A stretch of 32,486 nucleotides of DNA from contig JABSSW010000095.1 of NCBI GenBank assembly GCA_018902385.1, forward strand, positions 1 through 32,486, written 5' to 3'. A program made the position numbers and the translations under genes. The notes beneath the pieces are model-generated. The model was not told where the DNA came from, did no database searches, and was given only the letters and a program-made list of their open reading frames with translations. This stretch comes from Physcia stellaris (Eukaryota > Ascomycota > Lecanoromycetes > Caliciales > Physciaceae). This document shows positions 1,530 through 32,486 of the stretch, piece after piece. The stretch's first letter is position 1; every line of letters begins with the position of its first letter.

Positions 1530-1589
1530 GTCCGAATCCAGATCCGGACAGGGAGGGCTAGGAGAGGCAATGAAATAGTATTCACCAAC

Positions 1590-9766: not shown

Positions 9767-10124
9767 TGTGATGATGGAGATCAGACGAATGTTTCGACGA
9801 GGATGAATGATTTCGTAGAGACGCGATTTTCTGAAGCTGTCCAGCTAGAGGCCGGGAGATTAAGCGGCCGCACCCGATGGAAATTTTGCCGGTTTTGAAC
9901 CCTGAGCGCCAAGCCCCTTGAGCTCAATGAGATGGCCAATCAACGTCTGCATCCAAAACCTCACGTATTCGCCGAAAAGAATTGTCTTCCTGCCAGCTGA
10001 ACGCAAACTGCTTCGTTTACAAGGTACAGAGTGCTCGACGCTTCAGGAATCGGCGATCTTCACGACCCCCCGCCATTGACTTCCATGGACTGAGTCCACG
10101 TGCGGCGCCGCCACGTCCCGAAAG
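9767..10124. promoter_or_regulatory. Divergent promoter between the aminotransferase and MNN11 genes
   Basis: These 358 bp separate the minus-strand aminotransferase start from the plus-strand MNN11 start, so they must hold both promoters. A NotI-like GCGGCCGC palindrome lies near 9,865. No specific factor site can be assigned with confidence. Confidence 0.6.
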
Positions 10125-12473: not shown

Positions 12474-13198
12474 CGCCGTCTGAAGACTTTTGCGTACGCT
12501 GAGGGAATGATGTCAGTACCAACAACCACCTCGCTAAGACCGTGTAGGCGACGCCAAGGCTCAAGTAAAAGGCGTTCGTTCTCAGCAGGGCCACTCCGGT
12601 ATTTCCGTCGCAGATGCAGGTGGATAGCGTGCTCTTTACCCCATCTTGGTAAAGCATCACACATTTGCTGGAGGAAGGCTGTGAAACGAGGTAGATATAA
12701 GACAGGAAAGACGACCTGACATCGAAGTCGCTTGCTTCTCTCCTGGATGATCTTGACGTCGAGAGCGTGTCTGGTGAGCTTTGAAACTAGATCTGGATTA
12801 CTGCAGACGAAGCCCATCTCTGTACCCTCCAATAGCGACTGGGTCCAATAGACGTCATCGTTGTAGAGGCTGAGGCGTACGAACATATTTGAGGAATAGA
12901 ATATGTTGACAGTTTCAATATGGACCTGCTTGTTGACGCGTAGAATAGCTATATGGAGCTGAAAAGGCGGAGAGCTCGCTTTCAATCTCAATTTTCCATC
13001 TCGGACTAACGGCCGATATGCGAATGGCTTCGAAGGGCTAGTGACCCTAGTATCGAGAAGATATGCATATATTTTCTCTCTAAGTTCCAGTGGTAACTGT
13101 AATAGGCGAGAGGCTTTTGCAGTGATGCTGAGAGCCTCGAAACTCTCGGAGGGTGTCGGTAGATGAGGATGAGCCTGGGCGATCATTGACTGGAGCAT
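12470..13198 (-). CDS. F-box-like domain protein (fungal expanded family)
   Basis: The 242-codon frame carries the fungal F-box-like signature LLQLPLELREKIYAYLL at about residues 33-49. A region of the kind common in lineage-expanded fungal proteins follows (FQLHIAILRVNKQVHIETVN, then IFYSSNMFV). F-box proteins recruit substrates to SCF ubiquitin ligases; no substrate can be inferred. A Lys-rich leader in another frame (13,080-13,271; MPTEKKASKNTKNKNKAKAA) could be the true N-terminus if an indel lies near 13,130-13,190; otherwise translation starts at 13,198. The frame ends YAKVFRRR and runs directly into the TPR frame, so both are probably one protein. Confidence 0.7.
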   Translation of the reverse strand: MLQSMIAQAHPHLPTPSESFEALSITAKASRLLQLPLELREKIYAYLLDTRVTSPSKPFAYRPLVRDGKLRLKASSPPFQLHIAILRVNKQVHIETVNIFYSSNMFVRLSLYNDDVYWTQSLLEGTEMGFVCSNPDLVSKLTRHALDVKIIQERSKRLRCQVVFPVLYLPRFTAFLQQMCDALPRWGKEHAIHLHLRRKYRSGPAENERLLLEPWRRLHGLSEVVVGTDIIPSAYAKVFRRR

Positions 13199-13271
13199 TG
13201 CCAGACGCCGCCTTCGCTTTGTTTTTGTTCTTGGTATTCTTCGAGGCCTTCTTCTCTGTCGGCATCGTCAA

Positions 13272-14800
13272 CCATGCAATGCCAAGTCTATCTTGGAGCT
13301 GGGGACATACTCTTGTTCGCCATACCTTGTTTCCTTCAGGTAATATTTTTTTGGTCTACAGTGAGCTGATTCAATCGGAAATGTTAAGGGCGTTTGAGAA
13401 GAAAAGGTTTTCGTCAATTCCGCGATTTTAAGTGCAGCACGATGTCATGATGGCGTCGAACAGTGACACGCTAATTCTGCACGCTAAACCTGCACTCTAG
13501 ACCCTTAAGTAAACATGCCTGAAATGGAATGCCATACCCTATCTCCCACCAAAGCGATCAGGCCTGTTTGGGATGGTGGTGAGAAACCTCAAACTTTCAT
13601 ACTTCCTCTCACCCACTCCTCCAGGACCGAGCAGCGAGGAAGGTGCGCGCGCATCCTCACGCTCTTTGGCATGGCCACATTCATAAAGCCTTGGAAATGG
13701 ATGCCCTGATGGAGACAAAAGGGCATCGCCCGGTTCTCGCTCTTCCAGTCTCCAAATCGCTGTTGTCCTCTCCACCGGACTCATTCCCGACATCCCCATC
13801 TATCCTATGCCACTAAGGTTCGGAGAGAAATCCCGGCAGATGAGCTTCTGGAGAAAGCCGAAGTCGATGGCAAGTAAGGAGCTTACCAGGTGGAGAACAG
13901 CATCAAAGACAATACCAATGACTCGTAACTTTGTTTAGCTAAGGTACTGCGGTTGGCCCCTGGGTTGGGAATTCGTCTTCCACGGTTATCGTAATGCGCT
14001 ACAGTTGGGGTTGGGTGATATATCTAACCTGTATCAGCACGCTATGCTATTATTACCTTATTCTATCTTATTATTAGTTTCTTTCGGCTGAGGAGTCCTT
14101 GATATCCCCCTTCTCCTAGTCGTTGTAGAACATGCGTCGTCGGTTATGGGGTCAGAGCTTTGACGGAGCGTTGAGGTAAGGGGACTTGGGGATTGTGTGT
14201 ATCGTTGGAGGGATCCATGGGGAATGGAGCATGCAGTCCAGCTGAAGATATGATGGGTATCAATAGATATCGTAGAGCATAAATGAGATACTCTACTCTT
14301 CCGATTCTACATCTTAATAGCTATGTGCCTAATATACTCATCTCAACGAGGGAGGGAGAGAAGACGTCAAAGAGAACCCGCTAAAGCCCTGTGCCGATGC
14401 CTTCCCTTTCCTCCCTACGCTACCGCTATGATAGAGCTGGTTACTGCAAGATTTCCGCCGTTGTGGTCCTCCGTTCTGTACCCATGTTGCTGGTCGGCTT
14501 GCTGGCTTGACCGGTGTGATGCGTGCAGGTTTCTCCGTACCTTATTGGAGGGATGGGGCCCTGGCTTCCCGAAACACAGAGTGTGCCCCGTGGAGGTTTG
14601 TTCTCGAAAAAACCTCCTGTTTTATCCTCTTCCTTGCACTTGCCCTCCTCCTCTCCATACACACCCACCTCGAAAATATGCAGCCCAAGCTACAGCTCTT
14701 TCGTTGCTCTCCTCACGACCCTCTTGCTCTCTTGCTCTGCCTCTTCCTCTTCCTCTCCCAATCACTCTTGCCTCTTCCTCCCTCCTCCCCTCTAATGAGA
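13272..14800. other. Region without a recognised gene
   Basis: About 1.5 kb between two minus-strand genes. Short frames at 13,515-13,709 (plus) and 13,539-13,799 (minus) overlap and neither shows a known domain. Plus-strand frames at 14,323-14,956 are the antisense side of mS37 exon 2 and its 3' flank. Pyrimidine-rich tracts at 14,640-14,800 explain their Leu/Ser/Pro content. Confidence 0.5.
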
Positions 14801-15320
14801 TCATTTATCCCTCTTCCGCGCCCCACTGATCTTGGGATACAACCTCGAGAGGTGATAATTGATGGTGTTTTTCTTGGGGTTCTTCGGGCGCGGCTCGTCC
14901 ATGCATGCGCGCAGGGCTTGCTCCAGCTTGATGCAGCCTGCGGTGTTGTGGCCTGAGGAAGCCCAGCAGCCTGGAATGGGGATGGTGTTAGCGCACGCGG
15001 ACTTAGAAAGGGTGTGCGGTGGGTCGAGTAAAAGGGGCAGTGGGGAAAGGTCATAGGGGAGTGGTGGAGATGGTGGGGAGAAATGTAGAGCTCGGGGGAA
15101 AAGTGTGACTGTAAGAAAAGAACTGAGACAGTGTCACAGTAGGCATCAAAAGCAATTACGGTTGGAAGCAAAGAGGAGAGAGTGACGTACTAAGCACGCT
15201 TGACATAATCCCCAGACAGGGGTTCTCGGCCGATTGATTTGGGCGCCGGACGCGGAGTTTTGGTAGAGGAGGTAGGCGGGGAGTGGAGGAGATCGCTTTG
15301 GAAGTTGGTTTTGCGGGCAT
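14801..15320 (-). CDS. MRP10: Mitochondrial small-subunit ribosomal protein mS37 (MRP10), intact
   Basis: This CHCH protein of the mitochondrial 37S subunit is imported and oxidatively folded by the Mia40 pathway. Exon 1 (15,191-15,320) starts MPAKPTSKAISSTPRLPPLP and continues KLRVRRPNQ; exon 2 is 14,801-14,970. The intron (14,971-15,190, 220 nt; donor GTACGT, acceptor TTCCAG) splits the Ser before the second Cys. The twin CX9C pattern is complete: C-LGIMSSVLS-C, then WASSGHNTAG, then C-IKLEQALRA-C. The tail MDEPRPKNPKKNTINYHLSR is typical of the family. The 99-residue product has the usual length and, unlike genes to the left, needs no frame repair. It lies only about 370 bp from the hypermutated block. 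Confidence 0.96.
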
Positions 15321-15690
15321 TGCTGTATTTGGGTGGAGATGGTAGGGGAGAGACGATGCGAGTGGTGGGTGTTGGCGACAGCTCGATGGCTGAGGGGAAT
15401 CTTTATGAGGTGTGCATCTTTAGTGAGTGTATCTGGAGATTGGTCGGCTTCAGGAGCTAAATAGATGCTTTAGGTCTAAGAAGGATGTGATCTTTAGAGA
15501 TTGGCGATAAGCAATCGAGAGATTATGGGTAAGATGAGAGGTTGACGAGTTGAGGCTTAAGCAGCATCACAGTATGTGATACTAGGTACGATTATTGTAT
15601 TGCTTCGACAAAAAGAGACTGGAACTCTCATGATTGATTGATTGATTGATTCATTAAGCACTCGAAACCGATCTTAAGAATTCGTTATGC
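15321..15690. other. mS37 promoter region and edge of the AT-rich block
   Basis: This is the last balanced-GC sequence before the hypermutated block and holds the mS37 promoter. A (TGAT)5 microsatellite at 15,631-15,650 lies just before the composition changes sharply near 15,690. No gene is seen. Confidence 0.6.
15631..15650 (+). repeat. (TGAT)5 microsatellite at the GC/AT boundary
   Basis: Five uninterrupted TGAT units, about 40 bp before the start of the T-rich block. Confidence 0.95.
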
Positions 15691-16542
15691 GATTAAAAAC
15701 AATCGAGCCAATCATCTTCTAAGAGATTTTTGACTCTATACAGAATTATTTGCTTTTGATGTTTTTTTTTTTATTCGAGCAAATCACTTCAAACATTTTT
15801 ATTTTCATGATTTTTTTTTCATTTTCATTTTGTACGAAAATTTTCAATTCAATGCACTTTTTTGCAATTTTTATTTCTCGTCGTTCGCAATTGAAACTCG
15901 TAAATAATCAATGAATTCGAATTTTTCGATAAATTTTGTCGTTTTTGTCAAATTGATCGAATTGATCAATACGTTCATCAATTTTATTTTTTTCATTTCG
16001 CTTTTTAATTTCGTCAATTCATAAATTTTTACGAAATTTTCAATTTTTGCATTCGAAAACACGTGTTTGATCGTTTGTTTTTCTGGCATACATTTAACAC
16101 AATGAAATTTTCGATTTGTTTTTGTTGTATAAAAACGTTCGTAAATTTATTTGATCGTGCGAAATTGTATTGTTATGACGTTGAATTTTTTTGTGAATTT
16201 TTCGTGTAATCGTAATATTGTTTTATTGAATTTCGACGTAATTTTGTACAAATTTTTTTGTTGCAATTTTTTCATTTTTGATTTCGATTGTTGTTTTATC
16301 GATTTATGAAATCACGATTTTGACGACGTTTTTCAGCATTTGCACGTTCGTTTGTTGTGTTTTTGTGATCGATGTTCATTTTTTTTTTTTTTTTTCGTTT
16401 TTTCAATTTTCATTTCGTGATTTGCTTGATCGAAATGTTTGTTTGTTCGTTGTTTTCGATATCGATGTGAATCGAAATTCAATGCAATTTCATTTCAATA
16501 TATTTGTTTCGCAATTCGTTGATCAATCAAATTATTCATTTC
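15690..16542. repeat. Hypermutated T-rich sequence, left arm of an interrupted unidentified element
   Basis: CpC, CpT, GpG and ApG are nearly absent while CpG, CpA and TpG persist, giving strings such as TTTTTCGTTTTTCGA. Minus-strand reading contains partly open frames (15,871-16,089, beginning MPEKQTIKHVF), suggesting coding sequence in that direction, but I cannot assign a family. It joins 18,974-22,263 across the inserted LTR element with a 5-bp duplication (ATTTC at 16,538-16,542 and 18,969-18,973). Confidence 0.7.
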
Positions 16543-16704
16543 TGTTACGATAAATCGTGATGTGGGTGGATAATATGCTTGATTGTTACTATCTAGGAGG
16601 CAGAGTGCGAGATATGGGGCAGGCTGCCGAGGCTCTGCGGGAGCGCTAGTCCCTTCTGGTCAAGATATCCTGACTCCAGCCCTATGTGGAGGTTTACCGT
16701 AACA
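16543..16704 (-). repeat. Left LTR of the gag-only element
   Basis: 162 bp, starts TGTTACGATAAATCG and ends GGTTTACCGTAACA. It differs from the right copy by one GG/GA change, an adjacent CT/AC pair and one G/C change. In the gag orientation this is the 3' LTR. Confidence 0.95.
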
Positions 16705-16934
16705 GATGCCACCAACGAAAGAAGATCACAACGCCCTCGTTGTGCCGCGTGACGGGGACATGCGATCCATCCATGAGAAATCTATTAGTAATACATGTAA
16801 AGAAGTAAGGAATCCACCGAGTTCTCCGTCCATTGGCTCAGATGTCTCCGTGGATTGCGCCCGGGCCAGAGATACTGCACATTTTGTATGGCAAATGGCC
16901 CGATATCTCTGGTCAGAGCTTCCTCCAGGGCTGA

Positions 16935-18505
16935 TCAAAACGTCGATTCGGTTGGGTAGGGGGTCCATTCGGTGGAGCGGCGGCGGCGACGATGCTCCAA
17001 ATGGGTGCAGCGGAGGTGCCCATGCAGGTCGTTATTGGAGCGGAAGGCCCGAAAGCAACGGCGGCATGTATGGGGGTTGGTTTTCTTGATCAAGGCCATT
17101 AATGGGGTATTCGGAGGATGGCGGCCAACGTAGTGCCCGGCATATATACGTTTCGGTTCCGAATCAACGCATTCTTGGTAATGCGCGGCTTCTGATTGGT
17201 TGACTTGGTGGGTTCTGGTCCATTGGTTGCAGAAATTGGGGCCTCCATTGAGTGCGTGGCCTTTGTAATGGTAGGGAGCAGGTGTAAGTGGTATGCCGTC
17301 AGAGATGGAGGGCATTTTGTATGGCGAAACCCTCGATTTCTCTGACGTGGTTTCGGTAGGAGGTAAGGATTTGGGGCGGATCGATTCCGCAGGGATGAGT
17401 TGTTGAAAACTCCTCGGATTCGGCGTTTTCGAGCCCTGACTAATCGATGCCTTCTGATTGGCTGCGGGCTTGAAGTAGGAGGTGATTTGGTCTGACTGGA
17501 GACCTTTGGGGAAGACTTGTGCTTCTTGGCCTGATGATTGCTGTGTAGGTGGTTCATTCTCTTGTGCTTCCCATCGAACATCTTGAACAAGTCGTCAATG
17601 GTCAGGTATGGTTTCGGCTCCTGGTGTTTCGAAATTGGAGTCTGAGGGGTGTAGGCGGCGGAGTAGGCGGGCAATTGACCGCTGCATTCTCCAGCGCTCT
17701 TGGTAGGTGCTTTGGTGTAGGTATTGGGAGACGTGAAGGCTTTGGTGCAACGACTGGGCGTGAGGCTATTTCGGCCCAGGATATCTGCTTTCGTGGTGTT
17801 GCAGGTGGAGTGTCAGGAAGTGAGGTTTTCGGAGCCGTTTTTGACGGGCTGGTAGGTGGTGTGAGCACTGATGCTGACTCACTCGGTGGAGGTGTTGCAG
17901 GGGGTGTAAGCACTGCGGCCAATGCTTTTGGTGCTTCGATTGGTGCAGCAGGTGACTGCTTCGGTGTGGAGGGGGGTGTAGGCATCGCGGCCACTGCGGG
18001 CGCCGCTTTTGGTGTTTCGGTTGATGCAGCAGGTGACTGCTTTGGTGTGGAAGGGGAGTAGGCATTGCGGCCATTGCGGGCATCGCTTTTGACGTGTGGT
18101 GCTCGACGGTCTCGCTTCGAGGTGGAGTAGAGAGTCTTACGATATCGTTTGCAGGCTTTGTTTGTTGTTGTAGCTCTTTCGAGTCGAATTTCTGGTAAAG
18201 CGCTTCGCATAGGATATCGAGGTCCTTCGTCCAATACTCTTGCAGATATGATGCCTGTTCAAAAACCATTGCCCCGCAGAACCTTGAAGGCAATATCGAG
18301 CAATAAGATGTGGTTCGACTCCTGAATGCTCCTTTGTTTTGCGTTCAAGATTTGCCAGAAACTTGTTGACGTCGCGGTAAACGGCTATGCCCTCTTTGTA
18401 AACGACATCTCCTTCAGGGTATTTGACAGATATAAGGAGACTTGGATGAAGGATGCCGAGCATTCGTTGATAGTTCTTGCAATAGGATGGCTCGGATTGC
18501 GACAT
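16935..18505 (-). pseudogene. Gag-like polyprotein of the gag-only element, frame-interrupted
   Basis: On the minus strand the protein starts MSQSEPSYCKNYQRMLG. It then shows a capsid-like region (VYRDVNKFLANLERKTKEH, HLIARYCLQGSAGQW, DLDILCEALYQKFDSKEL), a Pro/Ser-rich tail with 27-residue repeats, the linker YLTIDDLFKMFDGKH, a segment YKMPSISDGIPLTPAPYHYK and a C-terminal C2H2-type zinc finger, CRRCFRAF...HGHLRCTH (C-x2-C-x12-H-x4-H). This order matches gag proteins of LTR elements common in Dothideomycetes, by my recollection of the family. The pieces lie in successive frames, with shifts near 18,250, 18,070, 17,650 and 17,300, so the copy is broken, or sequence errors are present as in nearby genes. 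Confidence 0.75.
17865..18110 (-). repeat. 81-bp tandem repeats in the gag Pro-rich region
   Basis: Units beginning TGCAGCAGGTGACTGCTT occur at 17,944 and 18,025, 81 bp (27 codons) apart, with a more divergent third unit to the left. They encode repeats built around TPKQSPAA. Confidence 0.8.
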
Positions 18506-18806
18506 GGTGCAGGTAGGTCGCTGACGCCGAATGGCTAGGTATTGCCAAACGCGGAGGACTCGTAGATAGGTATTCTGGCGTGGATTGGGCACGCAGGTAG
18601 GTAGATAGATAAACGGGTCGATAGGTAGATATGCTGATGTGGTTTCTAGTACAATAAAATCAAATGCAAATATGCTCCCAGCGGAGTTGGTGATACCCTT
18701 CGGTTCTGATGCTTGCCCAACGGCGCTGGTACGGCCCAACGGCGTTGGTTGCTGCTAGGACTCTAGACAGCTTGGAAAGCTGTCAATCGATCGATGATGC
18801 TATCAT

Positions 18807-18968
18807 TGTTACGATAAATCGTGATGTGGGTGGATAATATGCTTGATTGTTACTATCTAGGAGGCAGAGTGCGAGATATGAGGCAGGCTGCCGAGGCTCT
18901 GCGGGAGCGCTAGTCCCTTCTGGTCAAGATATCACGACTCCAGCCCTATGTGCAGGTTTACCGTAACA
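18807..18968 (-). repeat. Right LTR of the gag-only element
   Basis: 162 bp, same ends as the left copy, followed by ATTTC at 18,969-18,973. In the gag orientation this is the 5' LTR. Confidence 0.95.
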
Positions 18969-21900
18969 ATTTCATCAAATATTGATCGAAATTGATTTTG
19001 AATTGTGCATCGTTTGAATTGTTGTTTGATTGTCGATGCATATGATGAGTTTCGATTTTTGCAAATTTTAAAAACGAACGCAATCGCATATTCATTGTTA
19101 AAACGATGTCATATAATTCAGCAAAATAAATCGTGTATGACGTAATGAATTTCAAATACGTTTTCGTTGTAATAAATTTCGTTTTTGAAAATATCGTTGT
19201 TGTTTTTCATTTTTGTCGTTAATGTCGTTTTCATTTGTGTATATGTAATTGATCGAATTCGTTCTAATTGTATTTTGTGATATTTTTTTTTTTTTTGTTT
19301 TTCATGATACGTGTTGTTGACGATGTTCATCATGACAATGCGACAAAAAATAAAATTTTTTTATATCGTGTGTTTTGATGTTCGTTTTTTTTTCGAATTT
19401 ATTCATTAATTTTTCAATGAATTAACGTTTTTCGATTTTTGATGAAACGATCGCATATAATCGTGTCGTATGTTGAATTTGTTATTAATTTTATTGCGAA
19501 CGCATTGATGAGTTTGTTCAAACGTAAATGCATGAACATTGAATTGATTTCGATATTGAACGTTTTTTCGAAATCGTTTTGTATGTTTTCGTTATGATTT
19601 TTCGATTTGATATTAAACGTTCGTTAATTTTTTCGTTATTTTTTTGTTGTGATTTTTTTTTTCGTCGACGTATATCACATCGAACATGCGTATGAATTGT
19701 AAAACGAAAATCGTTTGATCATTTGTTTCATTTTCGAAAATTTAATATTTTATATAATGTCGTCAAAATTGCGTAATGTTTTTATTGATTTCAATGTTTT
19801 CGTTTTGTTTTGATTAATTTGTGTTTTTCAATTGAGTTTTCGTTCATTATGACGTTCAAATATTTCATTTTTTTGTTTGTTTTGACTTTTTGATTAAATT
19901 CAAAAATAATATCGATTCGATGTTGTTTGTTTTTTTTTTCGATCGAAATAAATGAATTGATATTTTGAAAATGCAAATTTCATTTCGTGTTTCAATGTTC
20001 ACGATACGCAAATTTTTTCGTGTGTTTTGATTATAATATCGTTGCATTTTTCGAAAATGTAATTTTTCGTCAACATTTTTACATCGTCGACGAATTCATT
20101 CGCTGAAATGTTTTTTTTTCAAAATTTTCAATAAAAATGCGTTGTAAAAAAAAAAAAAAATCGATGACATAAATGAATTTTGAAAAATATTTATAAATAT
20201 TTCGAATCATTCGATATCGTATTCGTTCGTTTTCAAAATCGTCATTTTATTGATCAAAAAAAAATTTATTTATTTTATTAATTTCTCGTCGAAACGTTTC
20301 GTTTTGAAATTGTGTAACAATTTTAATCGAATTATATTGTCGAAAACGTTCATCACGTCGAAAAACATGATCACGATTATCAATTTTTTATTTCATGTCG
20401 AATGTATACGTTTCATCATGTAATGTAATGCGTGTTTCGTAAACACGATTTTTTTGATTTCGAAAATGCGTGACAACAAATCGTGTTTTCGTCAAAAAAT
20501 TGATTCGTTTGATCAATATGAATTTAAATGAATTTGTTTATAATATTGAATAAAATTATTGATTTGTACGAAATCGTCATTTGAATAAATATTTTTGTTT
20601 GATTTACGTAATACGATCGTGATCGATTTTCGAAAATGTTTCGAACAATAATTTTCGTTCAAATTGACGTTGTATATACGTTGCAAATGTGATGCGATAA
20701 TGTCGTTTATTCATTTTTATATTTTATTGATTATGTCGTCGTCGTTTGAAATTTTATTCGAAATTTGTTTGATTATAATTTTCGTCATTTCGTGAAATTG
20801 TATGTTTTTCAATTTCAAATTTTGATTGTATGTGATTTTTTGTATGTCGATTAAAATTATTGTAAACGACGAAAAAAAAAATTTTTTCAATAATATGAAT
20901 GTTTTTTTGATTGAATCGATTTTTGACAACATAAATGAATGATCGTGTAATGTCGATAAACAAATTTTTTTCGAAATTTTATTTTTTGTTCATTTGCATG
21001 TTTTTTACATGTTGTTTGATGTATCACATCGTTCGTCGATTTTTTTTTATATTGTGTTTTCATGATTTTGAAAATTACGTGATTCAAACGATTTTTAATT
21101 TTTTTGTATTTTTTTCACAAATCGTCGATTTTGTCGTTTCGTTGATATTTTTTTTGATCGATTTGATCGTTTTCGATGTTTGTTTGCATTTTTCGATGAA
21201 TTTTGATTTCGCGTATACGTTCGATTTGTTAATTGAAACGATCGTTTCGATAATCGTTTGAATGATTTTTATCAATTTTTTGATTTGATCGTCGATTTTT
21301 TTTGTTTGATTGTTGTACGTGTCGTTGTTGAAAATGAACGTTTCGTTATTCGTTATTTTTGTTTGCAATTTTTCGCGTAATATATCGATATTCGTTTTCG
21401 TTCAAATTTTTGTAATTTTCGACGTGATCGTTTTTGTACGCAAATTCAATATCGTTTTGATTGAACGATAATTCGAATGATTGTTCATGTTTTCGTCGAT
21501 GTCAATTTCGATCATGTTGTTTCGAAACAACGATATTGCGTATGTAAAATCGATCGTGTTTTCGTTCGTGTGTTTATTTCATGTAATTAATTCGATTGAT
21601 GTGATTTTTTCAATTTGTATTTTTTTATCGTGATTATGAGTTCGTATGCGTTCGTGTTTGTTTTCACATGTAATTTTTTTCAATTGAAATGATGTAAATT
21701 AAAATTTTTTACGACGACGTGTTTTTCGTTGATTTTTTTGCATCGCGTTTTTAAAATTGAATATCGCGTTGAAATTTTCGTTGTTTTTGTATGAATTATA
21801 CATGTTATGAATATTAATAATTTTGTCGTTCGCGATTTGCATTTTTAAAAAATCAAATTTTTGTTGTGAAACGTGTGAAAATATTCGATTTTCGTTATTT

Positions 21901-22263
21901 TTTTGTTAATCGATATGCACATTTTCGTGATTGCATCGAACATGTACAATAATTCGAATTGTTGCGAAAATTTGTTGTTTGTCGTGAATTGAAATGAGTT
22001 TTTCATGATTTTTGCATGATCAATATATCGAATTTTTTTATGTTTTTGTTTCGAACAGCGATATCATGATTTGAATTTTCGAATTGTTGACGTTGTATTG
22101 TAATATCGATAATGTGTCGTTTTTAACATTTTTTCACGATTTTAAATTTCGTATTTCGATTCGTGACGTCAAATAAAAATGTTTTGATAATCGTGAATGA
22201 AAAACTTTTTTTCTTTTTCAAATTTTTTTTTTTTTTTTTGATTTTTGATGTTTTTTTATTTTT
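18969..22263. repeat. Hypermutated T-rich sequence, right arm of the unidentified element
   Basis: 3.3 kb with GpG and CpC almost missing, very few CpT and ApG, and abundant CpG, TpG and T runs. TpA is scarce, unlike classical RIP output. Minus-strand frames around 18,958-19,333 and 19,791-20,047 are partly open, but the translation is dominated by Lys, Asn and Ile and no family is recognisable. No LTRs or inverted repeats bounding the whole 15,690-22,263 unit could be found by eye. The block ends near 22,263, where CT and AG dinucleotides reappear. Confidence 0.7.
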
Positions 22264-23262: not shown

Positions 23263-23267
23263 AGTAG
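23263..23267 (+). repeat. Target-site duplication AGTAG, left copy
   Basis: AGTAG directly precedes the chromovirus LTR and is repeated at 29,971-29,975 directly after it. Confidence 0.95.
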
Positions 23268-23491
23268 TGTTACGAGCATGCCTGGCAGGTAGATCTGACA
23301 GATAGGTAGTTGATATGATATGTGATCGGGCAACGAACTATGCTCTAATTCTACGTTGAAACTAGCGTGATTTGAGGCTTGGCGTCGCACACTGCTTGCA
23401 ATTCCAACATTTTGTATCTATTTGTTTCTGCAGACTTATTATTTTCGTCTAGCTAGTCAATATTACGTCTATTCAAGCACGGCTCATGATA
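23268..23491 (+). repeat. 5' LTR of the chromovirus
   Basis: 224 bp from TGTTACGAGCATG to GGCTCATGATA. It differs from the 3' LTR at 25 positions, all transitions. Six of these are mutated in this copy and nineteen in the other. Confidence 0.97.
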
Positions 23492-23938
23492 TTACAATAA
23501 GTTTTCAATTTCTATCGCTCGTCGTGATACGCGAGCGTTCAAAAATAAGACTTCAGATCGACTAAATCCTTCTGACGAGACAAACGACGAAAAGTTCTGT
23601 TGATCAGACAAACGATCAAAAGTTCTTCTGACGAGACATCTGACGAAAGTCGTGAAATAACAAGTCGAATCTTCACGCAATCGACGATAGAAGACGAGAA
23701 CTGACACGATTAACTTTCTTTCTTTTTATCATCTTCAATTTTTCATTTTCAGCTATGGTTCGAAGTCATCACGAAACAATTTCTCTCGGATTTTTTATTT
23801 CGATGAAACAACGCTTTAGAACGCTACGTGTCAACGTGAATCGTATGCTGCATTTAAATTAACGACAACTTTTCTGACGAAAATTTCGCTGATCAATTCA
23901 AACGTCGTCGATCTGTATCAACGGTCGAATTCATAGAA

Positions 23939-25219
23939 GTGAAAAATGACGAAGTCACTCACTTTCTGAATATCGTCATCATCGGTCAGTTGAAGTGGTG
24001 GGTCAATCATAGAGTCGTCGATTTTTTAAAGGAATTTGATCGATTACGCATCGATCGTGATAATTATTTGGACGCTTTGGTTCAATATCAGAATTTGTAC
24101 AATATTGTCAGCGTCGATCGTGACGAGCTGGTCAATACGAATGTCGAGTTAGATGAGGTGCGTCGAGAGTTGGATATCTTGAAGAGCGAATACGAAAGGC
24201 AACGTGATTTATTCTTGATCAAGCAAAAGGATTACATTTTTTTGAAGAAAGATCACGACGTTTTGCTGATCAAGACTCGCGGTCGTACACGAGGCTCTGG
24301 CGTCGGCGATGAAGGGAGCGACGATGAGGTCAGCGTAATTAGTTTTTCTCAGAAGAACAAACGACGCTTCAAAGCACACTCAGATTCTTTTAAGTTCATC
24401 GATGGAGTAGAATTCATCTGGCGTGTCTGGAAGACAAAGGTACACGATAAAATGACGGTCAACGTTGATCATTACGACACGGACATGATCGCAGTCATTA
24501 TTGTGATTGGCTGAACTGAGAGTGATGTCGATGATCACATACAATCGGTTCGTGACATTGATATGAATCATTTCAAAATCTGACATATGATGTTGAAATT
24601 TTTGGACACTATTTACGAAAATTCTGATTTCAAACGCAATATGCGTAATCAATTTCGAGCATTGATCATGAGTACTCAGAACTTTCAGTTTTTTTTTTAT
24701 TTCATTTTTTTCGTCTTAGCAATTCAACTGGCTATAGCGAAATCATCAAGATCGAGAAATTGATGAACAAAATCTTCTGAAATTTGAAAAAAGCGATGAG
24801 TGTATATTCACGTGAATTCATCACGTTCGATGAGATTCGAATCATTTTGCAGCAAATATACAATCGGCAATCGAGTTTTCGAAAAGAAAAGATCGCGACA
24901 CGTCAGCAACGTTCTGAATTGTCTCAGTTCAGATCAATTTCTGTCGCTTCGATCTCGATGTTTTTTACGAAATCTGTTATTTCGATTTTCTTCGTGAAGT
25001 CTGTCGTTCATTTTCATCTCAGCGTTGAAATCAAAACTCATGATTCGATGACAGACAAATTGATCGTCACGAGCAAATGTTTCACATGCGATGAAATCGA
25101 TCACGTATGAAGAGTGTGTTCGAACGCTCACAAACATCAAAAGCGTCATTGACACAAAATGCAAATGTTTTACATGAACATGATCAGCGAGTCGAGCGAA
25201 TCTGACTCGGAAAATTGAT
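23939..25219 (+). pseudogene. Chromovirus gag: coiled coil, capsid-like region, zinc knuckle
   Basis: The first open stretch (to 24,514) encodes a charged, probably coiled-coil segment (RRELDILKSEYERQRDLF). A family-typical capsid start follows: FIDGVEFIWRVWKTKVHDKM and TVNVDHYDTD. Later pieces include RNQFRALI near 24,650 and a nucleocapsid knuckle at 25,078-25,119 with spacing CX2CX4HX4C (CFTC-DEID-H-V*RV-C). Knuckle glycines are Asp here and one position is TGA, as expected from GG to GA change. No ATG start is certain: the open frame from 23,939 begins with GTG and continues upstream. GG and AG are kept in 23,940-24,440 while CC and CT are depleted, indicating top-strand mutation in this patch. 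Confidence 0.8.
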
Positions 25220-25289
25220 AATTCACATCAAAACGCGATTGATGAGTGTTTAAAAATTTTTCTACTCATCATGACGAATTGTTTGACTT

Positions 25290-25735
25290 TTTTGTCAGAC
25301 GATTTTTAGTCATCAATTGTACGTTGTCATTCAACGATAATAAACATAAATTAGAAACTTTAATAGACATTGATGCAACTGATTATGTTTTATTGATAAA
25401 AAAAATTGCGCAACTTGTATGCAACATGCTGAGCGTAATTTCGTATTTCTACTAAAATCGAAGTTCATTATCGGATTCGACGATCGTCAGACTTTTTCAA
25501 TAACTCATGTCATTTATTTCAAGCTGACAATTGATCTGCATTTCGAGTTGACAACTTCTTTGTTCATCATCGATCTGAACAATCATTCGATAATTCTAGA
25601 AAAATCGTGAATGAACAAGCATGAAGTTATTCTGAATATGATTTACGATAAACTGATTTTCAAATCGTTCAAATGTAATCATCATGATAATATATTCATC
25701 AAAACAATGCAGACTCGACGTTTGAAAATTCCTGA
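25290..25735 (+). pseudogene. Chromovirus retropepsin (aspartic protease)
   Basis: The active-site region reads TLIDIDATDYVLL; the DTGA motif of retropepsins is DIDA at 25,366-25,377, explained by ACT to ATT (CpT) and GG to GA. The following conserved segment (FIIGFDDRQTFSITHVIY, then TSLFIIDLNNHSIILEKS) lies in another frame and ends where relatives have GKPWMNKHG: here EKS, TGA (25,608-25,610), then MNKHE. The Gly to Glu, Pro to Ser and Trp to stop changes are each a CC or GG context change. The enzyme is non-functional. Confidence 0.85.
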
Positions 25736-26199
25736 TCCAAATCGTCGATGAGACGTATCTAGTCGACGTCGCGATGCTTTTATCGAAAACAAATAACGCG
25801 AAACATATTGCTGCAATAGAATCTCGATATACGATTTTATTTCGTTCGCAATTTAGCTTTTCAACGTTCTATGTACAGGACGAATCAAACGTATTCGATT
25901 CAGAATGTTTCGATTGTTTTACTCACTCGAAAGTCGATCAAGATGACGAGTCGTTCGTCGTTGAATCAGATCATTCAAAAATTGATATCACAGCGACTAC
26001 GAAAACGACATTCGTCAAAAAAAAAATTTGAAAAGACAACGCAACAAACGTTGAAAGATCAAAAACAACAATTCGAAATTTTTTCATTCTCGAGACTGAA
26101 TTCAGACGATTCGATGAATATCGCGATGATTGATGCGATTTTTTTGTTTATTCGTCGACTTCAAAGATCGAAAGCAAAAATGCAATGCTTTTTCATTAC

Positions 26200-27110
26200 G
26201 ATCAATCAAATCGATTTCGCACTCAAGACGTTGCGAACAAATTTTGAATCGTTGGAGGTTGTCGCCATGATCAAGGAGATTCTGGAGCACGAGCAGGTCA
26301 AGTCGATTCTTGAACGTATAATGGAGAAGGTATCGAAGTACTTCAGACATTTGTCAGAAGTATTCGATTTCCAGAAGGCAACTGAATTGTCGTCGCATCG
26401 AATTTACGATCACAAAATCGAGTTTTTAAGCGATAGCAGTACATTGTCTCGAAGTCGAGTATATTTTTTGTTCGAACTCAAGCTTCAGAAACTCAAGGAG
26501 TATTTGGAGGATAATTTTCAGAAGGGTTTCATCGTATTCAGTCAAGCAGCATACGTCTCGTTCGTTTTATTTGCAATCAAGTCAAATGATCAATTACGTT
26601 TGTGTGTGAATTATCGACGACTTAATCACATCACGAAACGCAATCGATATTTCATTTTCTTGATCGAAAAGACTTTAGCTAGAATGCAAAATTGCAAGTA
26701 TCTGATCAAGCTGAATATCATATCGATTTTCAACAAGCTTCGAATGAATGAAAAAAATGAAAAATTCATCACATTCGTTACTTTCATGAGATCGTACAAA
26801 TATCGAGTATTACTTTTCGGATTGATCAACGAATTCGCGAATTGACAATATTACATGAACGATTTGCTGTTCAGCTTTCTGAACGATTTCTGTCAAGTCT
26901 ATCTAAATGATATTTCATTTACAACAAATTCAAAAAAGCACATCGTTCACGTTCGTAAAATGCTAAAGAAATTCAAAAAAAGCCGAATTACAGATGAATA
27001 TTGAGAAGTGCGAATTTTTCAAGAAAAAAATGACATTCTTGAACGTCATATTATCGATGAATGATCTTCGCATGAATTCGAAAAAAATAAAAGTCATTGT
27101 CAATTGAGAA
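26200..27110 (+). pseudogene. Chromovirus reverse transcriptase
   Basis: The domain is clear: HRIYDHKIEFL, NFQKGFIVFSQAAYVSF, LRLCVNYRRLNHITKRNRY, the palm segment LIKLNIISIFNKLRM, FGLINEF and DDFCQ-type FLNDFCQVYLND. The first catalytic Asp is Asn (26,714-26,716) by GG to GA, and YxDD is YLND (26,900-26,911) by AG to AA. TGA replaces the Trp expected in the TWQ motif (26,843-26,845) and the one after IVN (27,105-27,107). A patch at 26,255-26,530 keeps many GG; flanking parts have lost them. Both active-site changes alone would abolish activity. Confidence 0.92.
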
Positions 27111-27159
27111 CGCTTTACAAATCTGAAAAAGTGCAAATTTTCGTGAATTTCGTCAATTT

Positions 27160-27760
27160 CTACAGACGATTCATCCGTGACTTCTCGAAAAAGATTCGAG
27201 TTCTCACTCGAATGATCAAAAAGCTCGTGGATTTCGAATGAATTGTTGAAACCGAAAAGATCTTCAATCTCTTCAAAAAGACGATGATCGAAACTCTCAT
27301 ATTACGACATTACGATCGAATCAAACAAATCATTCTGAAAACTGATTTTTCTGATTACGTCAATGCGAAAGTATTATCTCAATACGACGACGAAAAAGTT
27401 CTGCATTTCGTTGTCTTTTATAGTCGCAACATGATTTCAGTCGAATGCAATTACGAAATTTATGACAAAAAGTTGTTGATCATTATTCGTTGTTTAGAAG
27501 CACTGACGTTCTGAGTTTGAAAACATTGAAAAATCGATCAAAATCTTCATCGATCACAAAAATCTGAAAATTTTCATGACGTCAAAGAAACTAACTTTTC
27601 GTCAAGCTCGTTGGACAAAAACTCTCTCGAAGTTCAATATTGTCATTCAATTTCAGTTCGAGACTCAGAACGTTAAAGCAGATGTTCTGATTCGTATGTT
27701 GATTCACGATCAAAGGACGATATTGACGAACGGCATCAATATCGAGAGCAGGTATTGTTT
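27160..27760 (+). pseudogene. Chromovirus RNase H
   Basis: After the RT connection (NFVNFYRRFIRDFSKK) the frame meets TGA at 27,239-27,241 in the FEW motif. The RNase H then reads LKTDFSDYVNAKVLSQYDD, HFVVFYSRNMISVECNYEI, YDKKLLIIIRCLEALTF and FIDHKNLKIFM. Three TGA codons (27,512-27,514, 27,518-27,520, 27,527-27,529) interrupt the last part, the first where relatives have EEW. RQARWTKTLSKFNIVI keeps one Trp codon. The domain is recognisable but interrupted. Confidence 0.88.
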
Positions 27761-29026
27761 ATTTCGAAACGACTCGAGATTCACGCGATGAAGACTGACG
27801 AATTTATTTATGAACGAATTTTTGCTGTCAACAGAACTGACGATGATTGCACGACTTATCGTGAAATCATCGAACAAAATTTCATTTCAATGAATGAAGT
27901 TGATTTACGAAACTGCATTGAAAAGGACGGCGTTTTGTATCGAGGAGATCGACTTTGGGTGCTCGTCGATGTTTTTTTACTCGTTGATCTTCTCAGGGAA
28001 ATTCATGAATTTTCTGTCTCGGGGCATTCAGGTTTTAATCGCATGGAGGATTTTATACGTCGCGACTATTATTGGCTCAACATGCGCAAGGCGGTTCGTC
28101 GATACGTACGTAATTGTCATGAATGTCAACGCACGAAGGTCTTCAGGGATCGCAAGAACGGCTTACTTATTTTTTTGGTCATATTTTTGCAACGTTGGAT
28201 CGACATATCAATGGATTTCATCATCGGGTTGCTCGACGTTCACGGTCATAATGTCATATGCACGATAATTGACAGGCTTAGCAAGGAACGTCATTACGTG
28301 TTTTGTATCGTCAACGACGAGGGTATCAGTGTTGAGGTCACGGTCAAAATACTCATCAATTACGTATTTCGTACACATGGGCTATTTTTCTCGATAACGT
28401 TTGATCGAGGCTTTCAGTTCATATCGCTCGTTTGGCAGACATTCTGTCGAATTCTCGGCATCAAGTGTAAGTTTTTCACCGTTTTTCATCCAGAAATCGA
28501 TGGGCAAATCGAGAGAGTCAATCAGGATATCGAAAGACAGTTGCGGCAGTATTGCAATTACATGCAGAACGATTGGGACGTCTGGTTGTTCATGGTCGAG
28601 TTTGCAGACAACAACGCAGTATTTGCAACAACAGAGCTATTTTCATTTTTCATCAATAAAGACTTTCATTTTCGTATGAGCTTTTCATCAGATTTTATCT
28701 CGTATGTTACAACGAGGGAGCGGCTTCTGGTCGTCAAGGCAGAGGATATTATCGGCACAATGCAAAATATTCTCAATTACGTACGAGATCATGCAGAGGT
28801 GGTTCAGAAGCGTATGACAGTTCAAGTCAACAAGCATCGAAAGGTCGTAGAGTACGTCGAAAGAAATTTCGTCTTTTTCGATCGACGAAACATCAAGACG
28901 GTCAGGTCGTTTGACAAGCTCGATGACAAAAAGTTAAATTTTTATAAAATATTACAACGTATGAACAATTCATATCGATTCGAGTTGTCTGAAATCATGC
29001 ATATTTACGATGTGTTTCACTGTTGA
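27755..29026 (+). CDS. Chromovirus integrase, long open frame retained
   Basis: The 423-codon frame contains the N-terminal HHCC zinc region (HEFSVSGHSGFNRM, then RNCHECQRTK) and a catalytic core with all three acidic residues: Asp in ISMDFI (28,214-28,216), Asp in ITFDRGFQF (28,403-28,405) and Glu in DGQIERVNQ (28,511-28,513). A C-terminal region ends IYDVFHC before TGA 29,024-29,026. The sequence is heavily mutated, but on the top strand: CC and CT are depleted while GG, AG and Trp codons remain, so no stops arose. The open frame is therefore a result of mutation context and need not mean selection. A few conserved Pro positions are Ser or Leu, so function is doubtful. Confidence 0.9.
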   Translation: MFISKRLEIHAMKTDEFIYERIFAVNRTDDDCTTYREIIEQNFISMNEVDLRNCIEKDGVLYRGDRLWVLVDVFLLVDLLREIHEFSVSGHSGFNRMEDFIRRDYYWLNMRKAVRRYVRNCHECQRTKVFRDRKNGLLIFLVIFLQRWIDISMDFIIGLLDVHGHNVICTIIDRLSKERHYVFCIVNDEGISVEVTVKILINYVFRTHGLFFSITFDRGFQFISLVWQTFCRILGIKCKFFTVFHPEIDGQIERVNQDIERQLRQYCNYMQNDWDVWLFMVEFADNNAVFATTELFSFFINKDFHFRMSFSSDFISYVTTRERLLVVKAEDIIGTMQNILNYVRDHAEVVQKRMTVQVNKHRKVVEYVERNFVFFDRRNIKTVRSFDKLDDKKLNFYKILQRMNNSYRFELSEIMHIYDVFHC

Positions 29027-29094
29027 TTTTTGCGCAAAGATCTTCGTGACCCACTCGAAAATCAAATCAATGAATTTTCTGATTCTGTCATAGT

Positions 29095-29250
29095 CAACGA
29101 AAATTTCGAATGAAAAATGAACGATATTTTGAAATCTCGATATCACTACAATCGCTTTCAGTATCGTGTCAATTGATCGAACTGATCGCATGATCGAACA
29201 TGATATTATGTCGACAACGAAAAGTTTGATAATGTTCGCGACGTGATGAA
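29095..29250 (+). pseudogene. C-terminal chromodomain of the chromovirus
   Basis: In frame after the integrase come NDILKSRYHYNRFQYRVN, TGA, SN, TGA, SHDRT, TGA, YYVDNEKFDNVRDV. This matches the chromodomain pattern with Trp in the places now TGA (29,174-29,176, 29,183-29,185, 29,201-29,203; also 29,111-29,113 before the domain). Chromodomains of such elements bind methylated H3K9 and steer integration into heterochromatin, which fits the nested location. Confidence 0.85.
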
Positions 29251-29730
29251 CGATTTTCATCGCACTCATTTCACGATTGCAAATTCAAAATCGTTCAAAA
29301 CGTTGACTTCAATATCTCAAAACGTCGTCAACGGATTCGATTTTTCAACGAATCGTCGTCGCTTTCGAAAAAAGATCGTCATGTTGACATTAATCGAGAC
29401 TACATTCGATTAAAACCTGAAAGTCTCGAATTCAGTACACTCATCTCGATTTCATTTTCGCAACGTTTTCGCAATTTCTAATCTTCGTTATCGTCTCGAT
29501 GTTACTTACAGTCAGAACTTACGTCGCATGAAGGATTGAATCGTGTCAAAAACATCTTCAAAAACTGTTGTCAGATTTTATCGAGCTTTGAAGCAATAAC
29601 GGAACATCTGAAAATGAAAGATGATGATCGTGAAATTTCTGAATTTTGCAAACATTCAAATCAATCAGCAAGATTCTCAACAAAATTTTTCAATCTCGAA
29701 GTAACAACGGATCGTCGAAACGACGCTCGC

Positions 29731-29746
29731 GAAGAAAAAAAGATAG
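29731..29746 (+). promoter_or_regulatory. Polypurine tract of the chromovirus
   Basis: GAAGAAAAAAAGATAG directly abuts the 3' LTR and is purine except for one T; it is the expected primer site for plus-strand synthesis. Confidence 0.8.
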
Positions 29747-29970
29747 TGTTACGAGCATGTCTGACAAATAGATCTGACAAATAGATAGTTGATATGATAT
29801 GTGATCGAGCAGCGAACTATGCTCTAATTCTACGTTGAGATTAGCGTGATTTGAGACTTGACGTCGCACATTGTTTGCAATTTCAACATTCTGTATCTAT
29901 TTGTTTTTGCAGACTTATTGTCTTCGTTTAGTTAATCAATACTACGTTTATTCAAGCACGGTTCATGATA
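29747..29970 (+). repeat. 3' LTR of the chromovirus
   Basis: 224 bp from TGTTACGAGCATG to GGTTCATGATA, followed by AGTAG (29,971-29,975). It carries 19 of the 25 derived CpY-type changes between the two LTRs. Confidence 0.97.
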
Positions 29971-29975
29971 AGTAG
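29971..29975 (+). repeat. Target-site duplication AGTAG, right copy
   Basis: Matches 23,263-23,267 and marks the point where element B resumes. Confidence 0.95.
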
Positions 29976-31570
29976 AACGTTCAGATTGTACGACTTCAAG
30001 ATTTTTGCAAACGTATCGTGATCGCTCGAAACATTCGAAGCAGAAGTTACTGTTTTAAACATTGTATTCAACTCAAATAAATCAACGAACTTACGATTTC
30101 AATTTCTTCGATCTAGATTCGACTTCAAGAAATTTACTGACTGATTTTCGAATTGAGAACAGTCTCGTGTGTTTGTTAAAATCGTTCGAAATTTTTGCAA
30201 CGTCACTACAACTTATCGTGATTCGAAATACTTCAAACAACTGATTAGAATTTCACGACAGCATTTTTCGTTTAGCAATTCTGTGACATTTTCGTATAGT
30301 TCAAATACATCATTTAAGTTTGAATTGTCACAAAAGTTACGAAATTCGTTTGCAAGAGTTTCACGAATATCACGTCGAAACAAATTCATAACTAACATTG
30401 AAAACGTTTCTATTCGCTTCGATTTACGCTCTGTTTCGTCACAAACATCAAATTATTCGTCTGTAATCAATTCATTTTTTCGACGTGTTACAAACGTTAC
30501 GTCTGTTGACGAGATTATTCATCACGAATTTATTGAATCACAGTCAACACGAAATATGATCGATTTCACTGTGAAACAACAACGAATCATTGCAGTCATT
30601 GTACGAAAAACTATTCAGACTATATCTCGTGAACGTGATGATAACGATGATGACGTTGAATCGTTTGATTCGTCTGATTTTTCGAATCATTCGATCAGAA
30701 TGACAATATTGACAGCAACACTAAATGAAATTCGACTGATTTTGATTTTTTCGATTTTATTACGATGACAAATCGCTTGCTAATGAAGCAAACTATCGTT
30801 AACATTGATAAAAATACATATTTTCGAAACATCACGTTTATTCATTGTACGAGCGAAAAAGATGACTTTACACGTGACGAACAACTAATTAAAAACAATT
30901 TGTGACTTAGTTTAAAAAATATTGCGTTGAAATGATGAACAAATGAATTGTTTGACGTCGAACGTCGAATGACTAAAATGATTATAATTGAACAAGAAGA
31001 ATTGTCTGAATGAATTAGTTTGTTGCCTGATAAATTCAAACAATTTATTAACGTTGTTATGAATAGTTTAGTGCAACAGCGTTACACATTAAGAAATGTC
31101 GTTGTACAGCGTGAATCTCGTGAGTACGCACAGAAAATCATTCGACTAGTCAAAAATGCTGACATGATCAGCGTATTCAATCAACTCGATTTCATCTACA
31201 ATGGCATATCGACATTGATGTACGAACTGATACGTTACGTCGTTTCAAAAATAGTATTATTATCAACGAAAATGCTTAGCGATATGAACGATTGGCGCGA
31301 TTGATGGTAAAGCTGTTGCAAACTACGAAGAACATCAATATTCAAAATAGTCGTAATCAATTATCTAGACAGAATGTTCGTTTTCAGCAATTCGATCAAT
31401 ATAATAACAATCGTCAATCGCGATCTCAGCGACAATCGTTTCAATTTCAGTCGTTTCAACGTCCGATTTTCAATCTCGTTATTCGAATAATGCTTATCAA
31501 AATCAGTCTTTTCAGTCTCGTCAAAGCTATCAACAAGAAAGAATATCAGATTTACAAAATCAGCTGATTA
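29976..31570 (+). pseudogene. Gag region of Ty3/gypsy element B, hypermutated
   Basis: The clearest part reads LFDVERRMTKMIIIEQ, LLPDKFKQFINVVMNS, QQRYTLRNVVVQRESREYAQ, IRLVKNADMISVFNQLDF and IYNGISTLMYELIRYVVS, the order of a fungal LTR-element capsid protein. Just before it, two consecutive TGA codons (30,933-30,938) follow ALK, where related gag proteins have a WW pair. A Gln/Arg/Ser/Asn-rich tail follows (31,367-31,480). The first open stretch (30,169-30,768) ends in an acidic segment (RERDDNDDDVESFDSSD) typical of gag N-terminal regions. Several frame changes and TGA stops make it inactive. Confidence 0.7.
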
Positions 31571-32486
31571 TCAAGTCGACTATTCAAACAATCAAGAAGA
31601 TCAATACCAAACGCTCGCACGTTATTTACGTTGTCGAATCGATTACAGATTATCGTCGCATTCAAAGAAACGTCAACGCGCCAAATTCGAATCAACAGCA
31701 ATTTATGTCATCACGACAGTTTTTTAAATCGCTCAACAATATTCAACGAAACGACTATAAATGACATGCATTTAATACGCACAGCGTTTTCAAACAACGT
31801 ATCGCTGGGCTGTCATTGACGAAACGAACGAGAATAATTACATCATAAACCACATCAACGACGCTCATCGACCATTCAATATCAAAATATCGACGACTTC
31901 ACGTGTTCGTTTACGATGAGCAAACTGGATTTGTTCACGATTACAATCAAAACGTTGAAATCGCACACAAAACGTCAATTTTTGACGTTTACTATCAGTT
32001 GTCGCACACAACTCCATTCACCGTAACAATATTTTTACGTTTAGAAATCAACTGTTCAAACATTTACGCATTGCGTGCTAATTTTGACACGTTTGAACAC
32101 GCTGATCACGTTGACGTTGTATCGATAATAAAGCTATCATTTTCGTTTACGTCAAACATTAAAACTTTTCGCAAAGAGATTTACGAATTTTCATACGCTT
32201 TTTTCAATCAATCGTCGCGTTATTCAATTTATTGTACGTTTTGATGAAGTTAGTTTTGATTACGTTTTTCGTGAATATCAATACGATCAGATTATCGTTA
32301 AATTAAATAGTGCGTCGAAAACATCAAGATATGCATCGATATTGATTGTTTTGTTATTATGATCGATCGCAAGTTTTTCACACAATTACTATTTAATGTA
32401 TCGATGCAAAGTTAGCTTCATTTATATTTATGCTGAAATGCGAAGCGACAAATTGTCAAATCAGACGAGTTCATGTTTGTTAACAT
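31571..32486 (+). pseudogene. Element B gag/pol junction with retropepsin start, cut by the window end
   Basis: At 32,329-32,379 the frame reads ICIDIDCFVIMIDRKFF, which matches the retropepsin start of fungal elements that use a D-T-G-C active site and a VTLIDR-like continuation. CIDIDC at 32,332-32,349 would arise from ACT to ATT and GG to GA. Upstream YVFREYQYDQIIVKL fits the preceding strand with Gly to Glu. The region 31,571-32,230 lacks a clear domain and has many frame changes. RT, integrase and the 3' LTR must lie beyond the right edge. Confidence 0.7.

Follow-up and report, generated by a model that had tools for sequence, protein, structure and literature searches.

Repeat-targeted C-to-T mutation led by CpC, with CpA and CpG spared, in the lichen-forming fungus Physcia stellaris

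Which process has altered the repeats of Physcia stellaris (Lecanoromycetes, Caliciales, Physciaceae), given that the two long terminal repeats (LTRs) of one Ty3/gypsy-type element differ almost only at cytosines followed by a pyrimidine (CpY)? The element lies in contig JABSSW010000095.1 (C95), whose 32,486 nucleotides constitute the window analyzed here, within an assembly of 44.0 Mb in 147 contigs. The initial annotation had reported 25 differences between the LTRs, all transitions and without indels, and alignment confirmed this reading, every change being C/T or G/A. Classified by the 3' base on the mutated strand, the differences were found at CpT (16), CpC (7), CpC-or-CpT (1), CpA (1) and CpG (0); the proposed counts of 16 CpT and 1 CpA thus stood, while the proposed 8 CpC proved to be 7 plus one site whose 3' neighbor is not the same in the two LTRs. 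CpY differed at 24 sites and was shared at 20, whereas cytosines followed by a purine (CpR) differed at 1 and were shared at 53 (Fisher P = 7e-10), and all of the CpG sites (20/20) were shared and unmutated, as had been claimed. An origin of the two LTRs from different insertions was rejected, since AGTAG is present as a common target duplication at both outer sides, and the pair therefore represents one insertion, as the annotation had assumed. The repeat finder delimited the LTRs at 227 bp (23265-23491 and 29744-29970), as three flanking bases match too.

A genome search with the LTR and 309 bp of inside sequence as the query gave at least 43 matches (40 of 307 candidates scored), and LTR pairs were sought at 21 loci, comprising 20 fetched stretches and the window. 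Two LTRs at element distance were present at 14 loci, and the other 7, with no second LTR at that distance within the stretch examined, were left out. The 14 pairs represent 12 insertions, given that L013 repeats the window insertion and L015 and L020 share flanks, and the pooled counts include all 14; the 5-bp flanks matched exactly in 8 pairs and were one transition apart in 6. Pooled differences were found at CpT (173), CpC (33), CpC-or-CpT (13), CpA (18, plus 1 beside a gap) and CpG (4, plus 1 mixed CpG/T), with 6 transversions and 7 gap columns. CpT leads these differences because very few CpC sites are left. Read in isolation, LTR pairs may deceive: once a preferred context has been exhausted, it no longer differs between the two LTRs. 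The L027 copy, with identical LTRs and a GC content of 53.7%, compared with 26.5-36.9% in the other 13 copies, was on these grounds used as the reference, for polarity only. Relative to L027, C-to-T change in the 13 other copies (5.8-6.7 kb each) was highest at CpC (11613/12526, 0.927), followed by CpT (7925/10708, 0.740), with CpA (594/11196, 0.053) and CpG (353/11529, 0.031) at background level. The reverse change, T-to-C, was at most 0.043 in every context, and transversions numbered 33 to 92 per copy. The CpC count over both strands was 987 in L027, 0-3 in 9 of the 13 copies, and 7, 44, 63 and 140 in L028, L017, L013 and the window copy, respectively. The per-copy rates at CpC and CpT were 0.78 and 0.41 in the window copy, 0.86 and 0.46 in L013, and 0.97 and 0.92 in L024, and arithmetic from the two least mutated copies, those of the window and L013, indicated that CpC is mutated about three times faster than CpT. 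Direct comparison of the window and L013 elements gave differences at CpT (128), CpC (72), CpC/T (29), CpA (8) and CpG (17).

Similar spectra were found in two further repeat families. In the second family (window 19000-22200; at least 40 matches in the genome, 40 of 59 candidates scored), each of the 10 copies read held 0 to 2 CpC over both strands of the 3.2 kb, 6 of them having none at all, and 8 to 79 CpT, against 390-449 CpA and 400-436 CpG, and the remaining C was almost entirely within CpA or CpG. Among the 45 pairs of these copies, counted after orienting L038 and L040-L042, which lie in reverse, differences were found at 3228/37036 CpA, 1673/37050 CpG, 29/36 CpC and 2313/2859 CpT. In copies L054 and L055 of the third family CpC was absent and CpT showed observed/expected ratios (O/E) of 0.29 and 0.39, and the differences read between copies of this type were 123/169 at CpT, 71/660 at CpA and 49/590 at CpG. 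The claimed CpY preference was thus supported by alignments in three families, CpA not being the main context in any of them, and was refined to the order CpC > CpT with CpA and CpG at background. In contrast with the repeats, all of the host gene loci (11/11) were normal (CpC 0.90-1.17, CpT 0.98-1.10), as was window 1-15000, so that within this limited sample of the genome repeats were hit and genes were spared. With C-to-T change on both strands and few transversions, the process is real, sharply defined and akin to repeat-induced point mutation (RIP), and its context, with CpC leading and CpA spared, is new.

The simplest alternative would be ordinary CpA-type RIP in which CpA has been exhausted and only the secondary CpT and CpC contexts still differ. 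Differences dominated by CpT are on record for several fungi, in the source passages available, and exhausted CpA may explain some such reports. Nevertheless, CpA is intact in Physcia, with an O/E of about 1.3 in saturated repeat DNA in addition to the low rate against L027, and TpA is not raised (O/E about 0.45). An exhausted-context artefact is thereby excluded for the window element, in which CpA is abundant and intact, and the classical explanation was rejected as extremely unlikely.

The trinucleotide rates showed that the 5' base has little effect at a fixed 3' base: NCC ranged over 0.909-0.947, NCT over 0.679-0.764 (GCT lowest), NCA over 0.045-0.056 and NCG over 0.020-0.035. Ultraviolet damage in a sun-exposed lichen would produce C-to-T changes at dipyrimidines, and both CpC and CpT are dipyrimidines; however, gene loci are untouched, and TpC is likewise a dipyrimidine when a purine comes next, yet TCA (0.055) and TCG (0.031) are as quiet as the other NCA and NCG, so that this origin was discarded as scarcely credible. 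A general C-to-T mutator, indifferent to the 3' base, would account for the similar degree to which CpA and CpG are spared (0.053 and 0.031) if both contexts were shielded, for instance by prior CpR methylation. Shielding of CpR alone leaves the excess of CpC over CpT unexplained, and methylation of CpA and CpG without any CpY would itself be unusual, which counts against an explanation that is considered quite unlikely.

Both strands were mutated, for example at rates of 0.95 and 0.94 in L024, and the rates of the two strands lay no more than 0.11 apart in 12 of the 13 copies, the window copy being uneven (0.72 and 0.47). The unevenness includes two runs in which CpY is mutated on one strand (Table 1). 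In L017 and L028, the two other copies profiled, no such runs were found, barring a milder start of L017 (0.54 against 0.24). The runs of the window copy fit one enzyme moving along one strand per event, and strand-wise mutation runs are known for Neurospora RIP, which the window copy resembles in this respect. Such runs would also be expected from a cytidine deaminase of the APOBEC/AID kind acting on single-stranded or reverse-transcribed DNA, and the genome contains 8 matches to the deaminase family PF00383. APOBEC/AID-type deaminases pick their target by the 5' base, whereas in Physcia the 3' base decides; CCA, whose target is itself preceded by C, stays quiet, and this counts against a deaminase guided by the 5' base. 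Editing of this type was rejected on the trinucleotide rates. The near equality of the strands in 12 of 13 copies argues in the same direction, and the two PF00383 matches scanned (L047 and L052) look like relatives of RibD and TadA, below the NCBIfam cut-offs. A deaminase, one of three options that the initial annotation had offered beside a RID-type enzyme and a different pathway, is accordingly judged very unlikely.

Of those options a RID-type enzyme is the likeliest, because the genome contains two RID-like genes and one DIM-2-like gene. A search of the genome with the PF00145 profile gave four matches in three genes, in line with the earlier suggestion to look for RID and DIM-2 homologues. 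The DIM-2-like gene on C3 has an open stretch of 1118 residues with PF00145 and DUF7893. The RID-like gene on C5 (RIDa), whose open stretch is 99% identical to G7Y79_00005g016670, has a full-length counterpart among predicted proteins; similar proteins are present in Usnea, Alectoria and Pseudocyphellaria. Besides these, a second, divergent RID-like gene (RIDb, L033) was observed at C6:791557-792528; its alignment with a protein from Heterodermia, also of the Physciaceae, spans residues 14-523 at 67%. The RID-like loci L033 and L035 score over the PF00145 cut-off and carry the motif-IV Pro-Cys (SPPCQ), so that genes of the RID/Masc1 type are present, presence being all that is established by this. 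In a rapidly computed tree with 58 rows, in which P0121 (94% identical) stands for Physcia RIDb and no experimentally studied RID is included, the RIDb clade comprised 12 rows including Heterodermia, with a support value (SH-like approximate likelihood ratio test, SH-aLRT) of 100 and a stem of 1.05, the branches being long. The motif-IV loop after the catalytic Pro-Cys reads SPPCQSFSPAQ..KP.DFEDKQ in RIDb and SPPCQFFSDAHT.MGKDDDMN in RIDa, a difference that may be taken as a lead to specificity, not as proof.

The repeats of Physcia thus undergo a RIP-like mutation in which, on both strands, C is changed to T ahead of a pyrimidine, more rapidly at CpC than at CpT, while CpA and CpG stay at background. 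That a RID-type methyltransferase carries this out is considered probable: the mutator would be a cytosine-5 methyltransferase of the RID family whose preference for the 3' base has changed, and RIDb, the divergent paralogue on C6, would be the first candidate. The sexual cycle may set the timing, and homology between copies may serve as guide or trigger. The same CpY mutation could instead be made by the DIM-2-like methyltransferase on C3 or by another enzyme that is not RID: a DIM-2-like gene is at hand, and a second, DIM-2-dependent RIP pathway exists in Neurospora crassa, as described in the available passages of a 2025 survey (PMC12543289). That Neurospora pathway, however, works on single-copy DNA flanked by repeats, and the k-mer shift in Neurospora repeats was removed by deletion of rid (PMC12543289, same passages), so that this attribution is regarded as unlikely.

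Several points weigh against the attribution to a RID-type, repeat-directed process. The sequence analyzed amounts to about 283 kb of the 44 Mb, selected at and near repeats and genes. The enzyme could also be RIDa, which is likewise intact. The labels RID-like and DIM-2-like go by domain make-up and motifs, with no experimentally characterized RID or DIM-2 among the sequences compared. In the duplicated pair L015/L020 a large part of the latest divergence is ordinary, with 18 of 31 transitions at CpY, the later changes being CpT (17), CpC/T (1), CpA (6) and CpG (7) together with 16 transversions. Finally, an unmutated repeat (16543-18968), with many matches elsewhere at 64-96% identity, sits between heavily mutated blocks of the window. 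Repeats can thus escape mutation, as the unmutated stretch 17497-18980 belongs to a repeat, and the insertion may have escaped through being young.

The last stretch was compared between C95 and its duplicate on C60. Over 17497-18980 the differences were flat (CpA.024, CpC.044, CpG.034 and CpT.038, with 28 transversions), whereas over 23253-25384, within the element, they rose to.356 at CpC and.147 at CpT. CpA (.035) and CpG (.025) match the background of the flank, and therefore no CpR excess is visible in that element comparison. A homology trigger would be consistent with mutated repeats beside an unmutated flank, but this flank is itself part of the unmutated repeat. The duplication was also observed as a repetition of window 5000-9000 at C60:238137-242166, the end of C60, at 95% over gene-bearing DNA, and the right half of the window is repeated at the start of C51, with the same insertion and the same target duplication; the element copies of C51 and C95 differ mostly at CpY. 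The overlap of C60, C95 and C51 represents either a second haplotype or a segmental duplication bridging C60 and C51.

Among known systems, RIP of Neurospora crassa is alike in the both-strand C-to-T change in repeats, the sparing of genes, a RID-type gene and a heavy AT shift, and unlike in its context order, which is CpA>CpT>CpG>CpC (available passages of PMC5496416) compared with CpC>CpT>>CpA, CpG in Physcia, where the CpA preference is absent. Trichoderma reesei also departs from Neurospora, with CpA~CpG followed by CpT>CpC (PMC5496416, same passages), an order nearly the reverse of that in Physcia. CpT-biased RIP with CpA secondary has been described in Magnaporthe oryzae and Botrytis cinerea T4, with a RID motif proposed for CpT recognition, and the term CpC is absent from the main text of that report (PMC4352252). 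Physcia shares the favored CpT and a RID gene with these fungi; unlike them, its CpC leads and its CpA is spared, so that the combination of CpT plus CpA was not found. Additionally, CpT-to-TpT transitions are prominent in alignments from Colletotrichum truncatum, Ascochyta rabiei and Anisogramma anomala, with relatively fewer CpA changes described for A. rabiei, in the passages available for these species; RIPCAL, as far as its available text goes, gives CpT changes exceeding CpA changes in Neurospora Tad1; and CpT-to-TpT is the dominant change in the RIP-capable control fungi of PMC7882544, as given in its available sections. This last dominance, in section 10, was observed to be at odds with the CpA-based indices of the same paper. 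An excess of CpT by itself is therefore not new. TpA indices are raised in C. truncatum and A. anomala, according to the passages at hand, whereas Physcia shows a depletion of TpA and retains its CpA; similarly, the ratio (CpA+TpG)/(ApC+GpT) is given there as 0.08-0.12 in the CpT-biased families of C. truncatum, compared with 1.19-1.40 in mutated Physcia DNA, leaving out a value of 1.04 for 29976-32486. The Physcia process is set apart from earlier reports of CpT-biased RIP because CpA is intact and not exhausted. The repeat-biased C-to-T mutation of basidiomycetes (Microbotryum, TpCpG), as described in the available passages, is alike in kind, but CpG is the least mutated context in Physcia. 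Mutated repeats are also reported in the lichen-forming ascomycetes Endocarpon pusillum, where they meet CpA-based indices (PMC3897900, in part), and Cladonia rangiformis, where a repeat GC peak lies near 16% (PMC12542154, in part), lower than the 25-31% of well-mutated Physcia copies; the terms CpA and dinucleotide are absent from the main text of the C. rangiformis paper. According to the available passages of the survey, which covered 1,239 fungi, a preference for CpA is common to RIP-like defences, and the 130 strong-signature species belong to four classes that do not include the Lecanoromycetes (PMC12543289); the near-saturating Physcia process, with CpA and CpG at background, is a clear exception to that rule. 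The open-access literature searched, as far as its passages were available, gave no earlier report of CpC-led or CpA-sparing RIP. The Physcia genome paper describes an axenic culture grown from ascospores with a GC content of 43.3%, and no RIP analysis was found in its available passages (PMC7513301). With two RID-like paralogues and a sharp, unusual specificity in one genome, a direct test of what determines the RIP context becomes feasible.

RIP detection commonly rests on loss of CpA and gain of TpA, and with the CpA-based thresholds of PMC7882544 none of 159 one-kilobase windows, covering the 13 mutated copies and 19000-22200, was called as RIP, because TpA falls in Physcia while CpA does not; surveys may consequently undercount. 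At the coding level, new stops in the open stretches of the element arose from TGG to TGA in 346 of 384 cases, and of the Gln codons 20 were turned into stops compared with 802 still encoding Gln (summed counts). Open stretches of at least 250 residues were kept in five mutated copies besides the window copy, and all five are without Pro, Gly and Trp, whereas the two such stretches of the window held 20 and 2 Pro+Gly+Trp residues. Open stretches of this kind can be mistaken for genes, and they offer a protein-level marker with which other cases may be found.

The Pro/Gly/Trp-free reverse-transcriptase stretch of L016 was used as such a query and gave 215 proteins, of which 120 were listed; 78 of these 120 have Pro+Gly+Trp below 1%, with Gln at 3.6% and His at 2.9%, bearing in mind that the query favors look-alikes, that some of the 78 may be Physcia's own, and that stop-filled copies, as made by CpA-type RIP, cannot appear. 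Within one lineage, at about 43% identity to the query, 28 relatives of P0280 among the matches listed keep 11% of its Pro, 14% of its Gly, 95% of its His and 90% of its Gln. Loss of Pro and Gly with His and Gln kept is what CpY mutation predicts, and these compositions suggest that CpY-type mutation may occur in other fungi too. That RIP machinery with a reversed base preference, set by a divergent RID paralogue, would not be limited to Physcia is a tentative reading, held at somewhat less than even confidence; if true, a share of the fungal genomes scored as RIP-negative would be RIP-positive and invisible to CpA-based indices. As an observation in its own right, many reverse-transcriptase open stretches among P0276-P0360 are nearly without Pro, Gly and Trp while keeping His and Gln. 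A viral contig scan for P0328 gave 15 pattern matches, with no relative confirmed.

The features of the window are collected in Table 1.

Table 1. Features located in the window, with dinucleotide values where computed (O/E, observed/expected)
Feature	Position	Strand	Remarks
5' LTR, Ty3/gypsy-type element	23268..23491	+	224 bp; repeat search and LTR alignment
3' LTR	29747..29970	+	224 bp; differs from the 5' LTR by 25 transitions and by no indels; LTR alignment
Target-site duplication AGTAG, left	23263..23267		Flank sequence
Target-site duplication AGTAG, right	29971..29975		Flank sequence
Element internal part	23492..29746	+	CpC O/E 0.31, CpT 0.70, CpG 2.0, CpA 1.1 (computed on 23492-29743)
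Open stretch, reverse-transcriptase region	25871..26845	+	No Pfam match itself; L016:3004-3795 of another copy finds PF00078-bearing proteins
Integrase open stretch	27755..29026	+	PF17921 Integrase_H2C2 over cut-off; rve below cut-off
Single-strand run	24068..24467 (approximate, alignment offset 800-1200)	+	CpY mutated 0.76 vs 0.04 on the other strand
Second single-strand run	28068..28867 (approximate, alignment offset 4800-5600)	+	0.77-0.79 vs 0.04-0.05
Second repeat family, saturated	19000..22200		CpC count 0, CpT O/E 0.04, CpG 3.9, CpA 1.3
Third repeat family	30000..32486		23 matching stretches; CpC O/E 0.10
Further CpY-depleted block	15501..16500		CpC O/E 0.39 then 0.06; CpT 0.72 then 0.08
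Gene-bearing part, negative control	1..15000		CpC 0.97, CpT 1.11, CpA 1.08, CpG 0.84
Unmutated LTR-like insertion	16543..18968		Direct repeats of 162 bp at the ends (98%); serves as internal negative control although a repeat itself

A search of the window against Rfam gave no match. A tandem pair of 102-nt units, 75% alike, was also observed at window 929-1132.

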